NCBI GenBank assembly: GCA_030673895.1
Contig: JAUTCR010000066.1
Location: 1-64,000, forward strand
DNA from: Verrucomicrobiota bacterium JB023
Lineage (GTDB): Bacteria > Verrucomicrobiota > Verrucomicrobiia > Verrucomicrobiales > Akkermansiaceae
Direction: 5' to 3'
DNA length: 64,000 nt
The position numbers and the translations under genes are program-made. The notes beneath the pieces are model-generated. The model had not been told where the DNA came from and did not search any database. It saw only the letters and a list, made by a program, of their open reading frames with translations. This document shows positions 36,885 through 42,363 of this stretch, piece by piece (position 1 is the stretch's first letter; each line of letters starts with the position of its first letter).

Positions 36885-39800
36885 TCACGATTCAAGAATA
36901 TCCAAGACCTCTTGCTCACTAATGCCTGCCCCGCTTCCGCCTCCATCGACAAGGGATTCGATCAGCCCCCGCTTCTTCTCCTGAAGCGCGAGAATCTTCT
37001 CTTCCACCGTGTCTCTGGCGATCAATTTGTAGCTCGTCACGACGCGCGTTTGCCCAATCCGGTAGGCCCGGTCCGTCGCTTGAGCCTCCACGGCCGGGTT
37101 CCACCACGGGTCGACATGAATGACCGTATCCGCGCCTGTTAGATTAAGTCCCACGCCCCCGGCTTTGAGGGAAATCAAGAAGATAGGGATGCTCTCATCC
37201 TCTTGGAAACGCTTCACCACCCCGGTCCGGTCCTTGGTGGACCCGTCCAGATAGCAGAAATTCCACCCTTTGGCGGCCAGCATGGGCACCATGGCCTGGA
37301 GGAATTTGACGAACTGGGAGAAAATCAGAATCCGGTGCCCCCCCTCGATGGCCTCTTCCAATAGTTCTTCGAGAACGGCGATCTTGACGCCCGCCTCTTC
37401 CTCCTCGAGTCCGGTGAGCCGTAAATCGCAACAGGCCTGCCGCAGCCGGAGCAGGGAAGTCAGTGCCACCATTCGTTTGGCGCCTCCCTCGGCTTCGCCC
37501 ACCCGTTGCCGGCTCTCGCGGAGGATCGCCTCATAGACTTGGCGTTGCCGCTTGCCGAGGGTGACGTGGTGGACCTGCTCGATCTTCTCGGGCAATTCGG
37601 TGGCCACTTCCGACTTGAGGCGACGGAGGATGAAAGGCTTCATCCGGCGGGCCAATCGCGCGCGCAAGGCCGGGTCATCGCCTTTGGCCAACGGCTTCTC
37701 ATAGCGCTCGGCGAAATCGCTCCGCTTCCCGAGATAGCCAGGCTGCACAAAGCGCATGATACTCCAGAGGTCCTTCACCGAGTTTTCTACGGGAGTTCCC
37801 GTAAGAGCGAAGCGCCTCTCCCCGCTAAGGAGGAAGGTCGCCTTGGAGACCTGGGCCTCGGGATTCTTAATGGCCTGGGCTTCATCCAGGATGATCGCGG
37901 TGAAGCCCCACTGCTTCCACGTGTCAATGTCCTGCCTGAGCAAGGCGTAGCTCGTGATGAGAACATCAGCCGCCTCACCCTGCTTCGCGAGCACCTGCTT
38001 CCGCTTTGGCCCCTCGACCGCGAGAACGTTCATAGTCGGGAAAAACTTCTCGGCTTCAGCCACCCAATTCCCGACCAATGAGGAGGGACAGACGACGAGC
38101 GATTGGCCACCGGTGGCGTAGATGAAGGTGAGCGTCTGGAGCGTCTTACCCAGGCCCATGTCATCGGCGAGGATGCCTCCCAGGCCGGACTCCGCGAGCT
38201 TCAGCATCCATTCCACCCCCTCCCGTTGATAAGGCCGCAGGATGTCACCCGCCGGGCCCAGATCCCACTCCCACTCTTCTTCCTGCCAAGGACCCCGGCC
38301 AGCCACTTTCAGCAGACCCTCCCGCACGGCCTCGCGGAGGTAGCCGGACTGCGCCGCATCCACCTTCATCACTCCCGCTCCCACCTGCCGACCCTCCAGA
38401 TCCCGCTGTAGCTCGGCAATCTCGAGAGCGACCGCCTCCTCCATGACCACCACCCGACCGTCCGGCAAGGTCCGCTGCCCCCCTTCCCCGCCTTGAAAGA
38501 TGCGCTGCACCTCCGCCGCATTGAGCGCATTGCCGTTGCTCGTGCGATAGGCCAGGGAAACCTCGAACCAGTCCTCCCCGCTGCCCCGGAAGTCCATCTC
38601 CGGCGTGACCTCCACCACCTGCCCCGCCGCATGGCGAAAGCGCTCTCCCTCCTGCACCTCCCAATCTGCCGGAACCCGCTCACGCCCATAGGCATGGAAG
38701 CGCACAATCTCGTCCTTCTCTCTCATCACCCATTGCGAGCGATTCCCCGTCTCCCCTCGCCCGGACCGCGCCTTGAGCTTCTCAAAACCCCACTCTGCCA
38801 GGAAGGCGCGGGCCACTCGCTCGCTCTCTTCATCAGGCAAAAAGGAAATGTCTCCCTCCGGAGCATAGTCAAAGGACAGCTCGGCTTCCAAATGATTGAG
38901 CGACCCCTCGAGCACGAGATGAACGCGGGGCTTCCTCACCACCGGGAGCTGGGCCTCGATTTGGCTCAGATCAAAGTGCCTTGCCAACTCTTCGCGCTCC
39001 CGACCAGCATCAGCAAGCGAGATTCCGCTGGTGAACACCGCCCGCAGATTTTCACGCAACCCCACGCCGAGAGGGAGTAGCTGGGGCCGCCCGGACGTCG
39101 TTAAAAAGAGCCAGGCCCGCGACTCATCTACCAGCAGCACCCCGTCCGGTTTGAGACCGACCCGCTTGCCTTCGATCATCAGGGCAGGCCGCTTGTCCAA
39201 GCGGCCACCTGGCAGGACCTTTTCCTTCTTACCGAGAGAAACCCGCCCGTGCCCGCCAAGCCCGTCGAGAAGATCAAGGAACTCCGCCTTGGTGAGAAAA
39301 CCCATCCCGGGCACCTCCTGCGGCGAGATGGCTTGGAGAGCCTCCAGCACCCCGGCATCCGCCTCACTGACAAAAAGCAGCTCCCCCTTGGGTAAGGCGC
39401 TCAACATCGCCTTCGCCCCACTCTCCACTTCCTCCACCTCCACGCCGATCATCAGCTGACCCGCCTGCCAGCTCTTCTCAAGATTGAGTGGCAAAAGAAT
39501 GGCCAACCGGACCGCGCGCGCCTCTCCCGCCTCCTCGAACGTCCAGCGCGGCCAATTCTCGCTGACCTCGATGGCAGCCGCCTCCCGCTCGCGGGGTTCC
39601 GCCTCCTTGCGCTCACGGGGATTGAGAACCTCCAAGCCCACCGCGACCACATGCGGGCACACGGTCCCGAATTTCCTCGCCAGGTAGCACCCGCACTCGT
39701 TCTCCACGTCGGTCTTTGAGTGAATGCGCAGGCGGGCCACCCCGCTCTTGCCCGTTCCCTTCACTTTACCCTCGAGCACGCCACCCTCCCACGAGGCCTC

Positions 39801-39896
39801 TCTCACGGCCCCGGCCCGCCAGATTCCCCTCGCCTCCTTCATCACCTTCCACCCCGCCATCTCCATCAGTGCCTTTTCCGTCAGCTCGAAAGTCAT
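36885..39896 (-). CDS. SWIM-domain SNF2 family helicase
   Basis: About 1003 residues from ATG 39896. A SWIM zinc finger (CxC...CxH: CGCYLARKFGTVCPHVV) lies near residues 70-90. The C-terminal half is a Snf2 ATPase: ILADDMGLGKTLQTLTF (motif I), DEAQAIKNPEAQVSKA (motif II), RFALTGTPVENSVKDLWS (III), then LIFSQFVKF, FLISLKAGGVGLNLTGAD and DPWWNPAVEAQATDRAYRIG (IV-VI). Such proteins remodel nucleic acid-protein complexes; the cellular role in bacteria is poorly known. Divergent from the GH13 gene, with 179 bases between starts. Confidence 0.92.
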   Translation of the reverse strand: MTFELTEKALMEMAGWKVMKEARGIWRAGAVREASWEGGVLEGKVKGTGKSGVARLRIHSKTDVENECGCYLARKFGTVCPHVVAVGLEVLNPRERKEAEPREREAAAIEVSENWPRWTFEEAGEARAVRLAILLPLNLEKSWQAGQLMIGVEVEEVESGAKAMLSALPKGELLFVSEADAGVLEALQAISPQEVPGMGFLTKAEFLDLLDGLGGHGRVSLGKKEKVLPGGRLDKRPALMIEGKRVGLKPDGVLLVDESRAWLFLTTSGRPQLLPLGVGLRENLRAVFTSGISLADAGREREELARHFDLSQIEAQLPVVRKPRVHLVLEGSLNHLEAELSFDYAPEGDISFLPDEESERVARAFLAEWGFEKLKARSGRGETGNRSQWVMREKDEIVRFHAYGRERVPADWEVQEGERFRHAAGQVVEVTPEMDFRGSGEDWFEVSLAYRTSNGNALNAAEVQRIFQGGEGGQRTLPDGRVVVMEEAVALEIAELQRDLEGRQVGAGVMKVDAAQSGYLREAVREGLLKVAGRGPWQEEEWEWDLGPAGDILRPYQREGVEWMLKLAESGLGGILADDMGLGKTLQTLTFIYATGGQSLVVCPSSLVGNWVAEAEKFFPTMNVLAVEGPKRKQVLAKQGEAADVLITSYALLRQDIDTWKQWGFTAIILDEAQAIKNPEAQVSKATFLLSGERRFALTGTPVENSVKDLWSIMRFVQPGYLGKRSDFAERYEKPLAKGDDPALRARLARRMKPFILRRLKSEVATELPEKIEQVHHVTLGKRQRQVYEAILRESRQRVGEAEGGAKRMVALTSLLRLRQACCDLRLTGLEEEEAGVKIAVLEELLEEAIEGGHRILIFSQFVKFLQAMVPMLAAKGWNFCYLDGSTKDRTGVVKRFQEDESIPIFLISLKAGGVGLNLTGADTVIHVDPWWNPAVEAQATDRAYRIGQTRVVTSYKLIARDTVEEKILALQEKKRGLIESLVDGGGSGAGISEQEVLDILES

Positions 39897-40075
39897 CGCT
39901 GGCGAAAGGTCAGCATCATCGCCCTGCAAAGGCAATCCCCCACCCAATCCCTCACAAATTGGCAAGCCAAGTCGCGCGATCTGCACGTCCTGATCAGCCG
40001 GGTGGCACCCCGCTCACCTTGTCCTTCAACAGCTTCCGACCTGGCACTCCGCCTGCCAAGCCTTCCAGCAAATCC

Positions 40076-41802: not shown

Positions 41803-42363
41803 ATGAGAAAGCTGCTCACAATCACTTGGCTCGGCCTGGTGACCCTCTTCCTCTCCTCTTGCGTGACCGATACTGGCACCTTCATAGCCAAGGAGAGCCA
41901 AGGCTTCATCCCTGCCCTGTCCGCACCGGACCAGTTTGGCCGCCAGATTGCCCTGCGCCAACAGGCCGCCGCCAATGACTACCTTCTCGTCTTCTTCTAC
42001 CCCGAAGCCGATACCCCTGGCTGAGTGGCCCAAGTACAAGCGCTGCAGGCTGCAGCCGATGACCTCTCCGCACAAAAGATCAATCTGCTCGGCGTCTCCA
42101 TGGACCCGGTGCCCAAGCAACGGGCCTTTGCGGATAAGTTCAACATCACCTTTCCCCTCCTCTGTGACACCTCGGGCGAAATCTGCGATCAATTCAACGT
42201 CCCCCATCCGGCCGATAAGCCCTCCCGCTACTCCTTCCTCTTCCACAAGCAGCGCCTGATCTGGGCCGACCAGCGGGTGACTCCTGCCAAGCAGGCCGAG
42301 CACGTTCTCAAGGCAGTGAAAAAGCACCGCATAAAGGAGCGGAGCGGCGAAATGAATGGGTAA
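41803..42363 (+). CDS. Selenocysteine-containing peroxiredoxin lipoprotein (UGA recoded)
   Basis: 186 codons with an in-frame TGA at 42022-42024 (codon 74). Before it: a lipoprotein signal (lipobox LSSC, Cys20) and the AhpC/TSA strand LLVFFYPEADTPG. After it: VAQVQALQAA, LLGVSMDPVP, FPLLCDTSGEICDQF and YSFLFHKQRLIWADQRV, all normal peroxiredoxin (BCP/PrxQ-like) sequence in the same frame. The TGA sits exactly at the peroxidatic Cys of the PxxxTxxC motif, and a SECIS-like hairpin follows it. I therefore read it as Sec74. Cys121 and Cys128 could resolve the selenenic intermediate. Expected role: reduction of peroxides at the outer face of a membrane. A nonsense mutation is the alternative. Confidence 0.82.
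42025..42056 (+). promoter_or_regulatory. Bacterial SECIS-like hairpin after the UGA codon
   Basis: GCTGCA (42042-42047) and TGCAGC (42051-42056) form a perfect 6-bp stem with loop GGC. The first loop G is 23 bases after the UGA. Bacterial SECIS elements place a small G-containing apical loop about 16-37 bases after UGA, so spacing and loop both fit. Confidence 0.7.

Follow-up and report, generated by a model that had tools for sequence, protein, structure and literature searches.

Peroxiredoxins that carry selenocysteine (Sec) in a TxxU motif have long been known, with 43 genes in the Sargasso Sea (PMC1088965), 253 in the GOS data (PMC2398784), and a review in 2026 (PMC13188914). The members of this family (Prx, TxxU, PF00578/COG1225) have an AhpC/TSA domain, a UGA codon at the peroxidatic position, and a downstream SECIS element, for which a small apical loop containing G is a common bacterial feature (PMC1088965). 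PrxU of Eubacterium acidaminophilum is also a Sec peroxiredoxin (Soehling 2001, as cited in PMC13188914). Among the Cys-dependent enzymes, PrxQ of C. glutamicum uses Cys49 and Cys54, so that the resolving Cys lies at +5 from the peroxidatic residue, as in many PrxQ proteins (PMC5811025), and an atlas of peroxiredoxins indicates that the position of the resolving Cys is inconsistent within PrxQ (PMC5302317). The reviews of Sec peroxiredoxins that we searched mention neither Verrucomicrobia nor lipoproteins. Likewise, a search of titles and abstracts returned no paper on Verrucomicrobia Sec peroxiredoxins or on lipid-anchored peroxiredoxins, within a coverage that was incomplete and is no proof of absence.

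The window analyzed here is a stretch of 64,000 nucleotides from Verrucomicrobiota bacterium JB023. On its forward strand, positions 41803-42363 form one reading frame for a protein of 186 amino acids (M1 to G186), which ends at TAA and is interrupted only by a TGA at codon 74 (42022-42024). When the TGA was read as Cys, the product matched PF00578 (AhpC-TSA) with 84.8 bits against a Pfam gathering cut-off of 26. The active-site motif was P67-E-A-D-T71-P-G-U74, and the TGA aligned with the peroxidatic Cys of the homologues. Thus, the initial annotation, which had placed a UGA exactly at the peroxidatic Cys of PxxxTxxC and described the frame beyond it as that of a normal peroxiredoxin, was borne out on both points. 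The AlphaFold2 model of the protein had a pLDDT of 88.5 and a pTM of 0.80, its low-confidence parts being only the signal peptide, linker, and C-terminal tail, and the top PDB matches of the model in Foldseek were BCP/PrxQ peroxiredoxins. Arg142 (codon 42226-42228, forward strand) was invariant in alignments A1 and A2, covering the clade described below and its homologues, and is presumably the catalytic Arg of peroxiredoxins. These results indicate that the gene encodes an AhpC/TSA peroxiredoxin of the PrxQ/BCP-like branch with one in-frame UGA at the peroxidatic position. A peroxidase activity of the product would follow from its family membership.

The best matches in fold and sequence, M. 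tuberculosis BcpB (5epf) and Xanthomonas PrxQ (5iiz), share the motif PxxxTxxC with the window protein. In contrast to them, the window protein has Sec in place of Cys, lacks the +5 Cys and, like most of its clade, the +36 Cys, and is predicted to be an exported lipoprotein. It scored 74.5 bits with the PrxQ/BCP equivalog model NF006960, below the cut-off of 140, and 17.5 bits with the PrxU model NF040737 (cut-off 270), which represents a different peroxiredoxin subgroup; no NCBIfam model reached its own cut-off for this protein. Since no NCBIfam model covers the Sec peroxiredoxin clade, a shortened gene is the probable outcome of standard annotation. Indeed, the mechanical list of open reading frames for the window held only a 3' fragment starting at GTG 42025, in line with an earlier expectation that the gene would be mishandled automatically. 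A gene for a SNF2-type helicase lies nearby (36888-39986), and one is likewise found near the orthologue in the relative G001 (L066, 69% identity), indicating partial conservation of the gene order around this locus within the genus. No neighbor was conserved across the compared clade loci.

Searches with a profile built from alignment A1 (the clade alignment) set apart a clade scoring 234-285 bits; the homologues that ranked next reached 184 bits or less. The clade was found in 23 genomes, 22 of the same family and one (G043) of another family in the same order; its relatives in the named GTDB collection were from Akkermansiaceae and other Verrucomicrobiales MAGs. In an even sample of 388 genomes across the phylum, scores at the clade level were obtained only from the window's own genome and G001. 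Every clade member had TGA at this codon and no Cys member was found; hence, the comparison between Cys and Sec relies on sister homologues. Close homologues carried only Cys or Sec at the site, and a residue other than these, which would have spoken against a Sec peroxiredoxin, did not appear there. In several Cys homologues a flag for an internal TGA near the end of the match was the normal stop codon, and such cases were excluded by inspecting the translations. In one sub-branch (L153, L155, and L157), TFWU replaces TPGU before Sec, an unusual change in the peroxidatic loop.

A stop codon inside a frame raises the question of whether the TGA is a nonsense mutation or a sequencing artefact in an ordinary Cys peroxiredoxin. 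Apart from the internal stop itself, one relative (L165/L073, same genome, G366) lends some weight to this explanation: it reads TTC TAG TGA where close relatives read TGG TGA, so that decay may occur in this family, and it is perhaps a decaying copy or an assembly error. However, the same TGA was present in all 23 clade genomes. Furthermore, dN/dS was about 0.1-0.4, below 1, in most close pairs both before and after the TGA, with higher values based on few changes in the pairs L155/L157 and L161/L078, indicating that the downstream frame is under purifying selection. Together with the conserved hairpin and the Sec machinery described below, these results make a pseudogene or an error hardly credible.

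The Sec machinery was sought by family searches in the assembly holding the window (4.03 Mb, 97.5% complete). The genome contained selB (329 bits, cut-off 242), selA (441 bits, cut-off 268), selD (374 bits, cut-off 125), and a tRNA-Sec with the anticodon TCA (UCA). The absence of these genes had been named in advance as the finding that would speak against Sec, and all four were present. Rfam matches to tRNA-Sec below about 50 bits were set aside, because nearly every genome and control yields them. The selD gene (L045, G000:C17:129582-130511) had an in-frame TGA of its own in ELSSCAGUASKL, so that a second Sec codon is present in the genome. Among 58 sampled genomes, namely the window's own and 57 relatives, selB was detected in 29, including 12/12 of those in which this family has TGA as its peroxidatic codon; the hypergeometric probability of this co-occurrence is about 6e-5 when phylogeny is ignored. 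Reading of the UGA as Trp or Cys by suppression, for which the one supporting point is the Cys at this site in other homologues, is very improbable against a genome that holds tRNA-Sec, selA, selB, and a selD with UGA at its catalytic site, a SECIS-like hairpin after the codon, and the restriction of the TGA-containing genes to selB-positive genomes of the sample. Taken together, insertion of Sec at codon 74 is strongly supported by comparison.

The putative SECIS element was located at 42042-42056 on the forward strand, as a perfect stem of 6 bp with a GGC loop at 42048-42050 (GCTGCA-GGC-TGCAGC), separated from the UGA by 17 bases; it lies exactly where the initial annotation had put it. Its position downstream of the UGA and its small apical loop with G agree with the published description of bacterial SECIS elements. 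The loop lies about 24 nt after the UGA, a distance that is conserved. In the corresponding register, in which paired positions add up to 54 when numbered from the T of TGA, pairing reached 87% among clade members and 79% among the remaining Sec genes, compared with 41% among Cys homologues. The first loop base, G at 42048, was invariant in Sec genes (29/29) and occurred in 38/100 Cys homologues. Most clade members had TGCGGTCTGCA, which is close to TGCAGGTCTGCA of E. coli fdhF; the latter stretch matched fdhF exactly in the sequence collection. At a loose threshold, no SECIS family of Rfam matched the region. The sole Rfam match, sR44 on the other strand (19.5 bits), was below its own cut-off and chance-like, and was rejected.

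The energy of the fold was then compared with that of synonymous recodings of the same peptide, using bases +15 to +44. Sec genes folded more strongly than their recodings (mean z -1.75, n=29) and Cys homologues hardly differed from theirs (mean z -0.17, n=100); the difference gave a Mann-Whitney p of 8e-11, which is not a true probability because the rows are related and not independent. A hairpin arising as a by-product of coding, with another downstream element or none guiding SelB, would fit the poor pairing of L038 and L107 in this register, and the peptide is partly conserved, so that the base composition is constrained. However, such a by-product would not be expected to lower the energy below that of synonymous recodings in Sec but not in Cys genes, nor to be kept in the same register by separate TGGU groups with changes of pairs at several positions, and we regard it as improbable. 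By these comparisons the candidate hairpin is beyond chance, with TGA at the same codon throughout the clade and an excess of folding in Sec genes that is not seen in Cys genes.

The N-terminus of the protein (41803-41862, forward strand) was predicted to be a lipoprotein signal peptide ending in LGLVTLFLSSC (residues 10-20), with the lipobox LSSC and lipidation at Cys20 (codon 41860-41862). The lipobox pattern was found in 21/22 clade members, the remaining one having AMPAC, and Cys20 is among the 22 columns of A1 that do not vary. Elsewhere the pattern occurred in 2/100 Cys homologues and in 0/7 other Sec members, and no match to it was seen in L049 (C44), the Cys paralogue encoded by the window's own genome. 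Two Cys homologues with the pattern are L077 and L035. These results agree with the earlier proposal of a lipoprotein, in which lipidation itself is a prediction, and membrane anchoring of the product is likely, with the localization based on a sequence pattern. Compared with the known Sec peroxiredoxin family, the clade is distinguished by the lipobox and the predicted lipid anchor, by Sec in every member, and by the lack of the +5 Cys together with the presence of a +54 Cys. The suggestion that a lipid-anchored Sec peroxiredoxin is rarely reported holds for the lipid-anchored form, of which none was found in the literature searched, but not for Sec peroxiredoxins in general, which form a large known family (PMC1088965, PMC2398784, PMC13188914).

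Subsequently, the Cys residues available for the catalytic cycle were compared. An atypical 2-Cys PrxQ has its resolving Cys at +5 (helix 2) or at +36 (helix 3), and the window protein has Q79 and A110 at these positions. The +5 Cys was absent in all clade members, two of which had Cys at +4. Position +36 corresponds in the alignment to the Cys84 site in helix 3 of Xanthomonas PrxQ; it was occupied by Ala, Ser, Val, or Thr in most members and by Cys in both copies of one genome. A Cys at +54, Cys128 in the window protein (codon 42184-42186, forward strand), was present in all clade members and in 2 of about 100 Cys homologues (L077 and L146), and is a candidate resolving or partner Cys. Neither the missing +5 Cys nor the conserved +54 Cys had been noticed in the initial annotation. 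L077 combines Cys at +5 and +54 with a lipobox; it might resemble an ancestral state, though it is not adjacent to the Sec clade in the tree.

With no resolving Cys at the usual +5 position, resolution of the selenenic acid may fall either to Cys128 or to an external thiol acting directly. In a cycle of the 1-Cys type, Cys128 would be structural and the external thiol would reduce the selenenic acid directly. The lack of a +5 Cys in any member and of a +36 Cys in most is consistent with such a cycle, as is the DsbD homologue encoded in the genome. Furthermore, a Cys of Xanthomonas PrxQ aligns with Cys128 even though the studied catalytic pair of that enzyme is C48/C84 (mutant PDB entries), indicating that presence alone does not make Cys128 a resolving residue. 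On the other hand, Cys128 is invariant in the clade and rare (about 2%) in Cys homologues, suggesting that the clade acquired or retained it along with Sec. On this balance we give the 1-Cys type cycle about even odds. The DsbD homologue could feed either route, via Cys128 or via an external thiol.

In a tree of 129 rows, the 22 distinct full-length clade members, all with Sec, were monophyletic with a support of 100/99, and the distribution of Sec required at least three changes of state. The other Sec groups in the tree had the motif TGGU and mostly kept the +5 Cys; L053 to L057 grouped with a Cys gene of G022, and L038 together with L107 was placed elsewhere. The tree thus indicates that Sec arose in the clade separately from its appearance in two or more further groups of Sec peroxiredoxins of this family. 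TGGU in place of TPGC was seen in nine Verrucomicrobia Sec peroxiredoxin-like proteins in all (L053-L057, L038, L107, L061, and L062). The change from Pro to Gly accompanies Sec in all of them, most keep the +5 Cys, and those included in the tree fall on branches distinct from that of the lipoprotein clade.

Taken together, these findings point to a PrxQ/BCP-like peroxiredoxin that is a selenoprotein, is exported, and is anchored by a lipid, in which Sec74 would be decoded via SelB, tRNA-Sec, and SECIS for peroxide reduction at the membrane; we put the probability of this reading at roughly 0.9. According to the proposed mechanism, SelB and tRNA-Sec would insert Sec74, and the product, once exported and carrying a lipid on Cys20, would be anchored on the outer face of a membrane. 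There Pro67, Thr71, and Arg142 would hold the selenolate of Sec74, which would reduce peroxides, and the resulting selenenic acid may be resolved by Cys128 or by direct reaction with an external thiol, for instance via a DsbD-fed periplasmic pathway. A further, tentative and rather doubtful idea is that a selenium-committed, membrane-anchored branch exchanged Cys for Sec with loss of the +5 Cys and recruitment of the +54 partner Cys, which would yield a selenenyl-sulfide cycle so far undescribed among PrxQ-type enzymes.

The new part of these results is a lipid-anchored, always-Sec clade of Verrucomicrobiales with rearranged helper cysteines, which does not seem to have been described. A known selenoprotein family would thereby gain a membrane-anchored and obligately Sec-containing branch in Verrucomicrobiales, an order in which the use of Sec is little described in the papers searched. 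Because its Sec appears to have arisen separately from that of groups that mostly keep the resolving Cys, this lineage may serve as a natural comparison of how redox partners are rewired when Sec is taken up.
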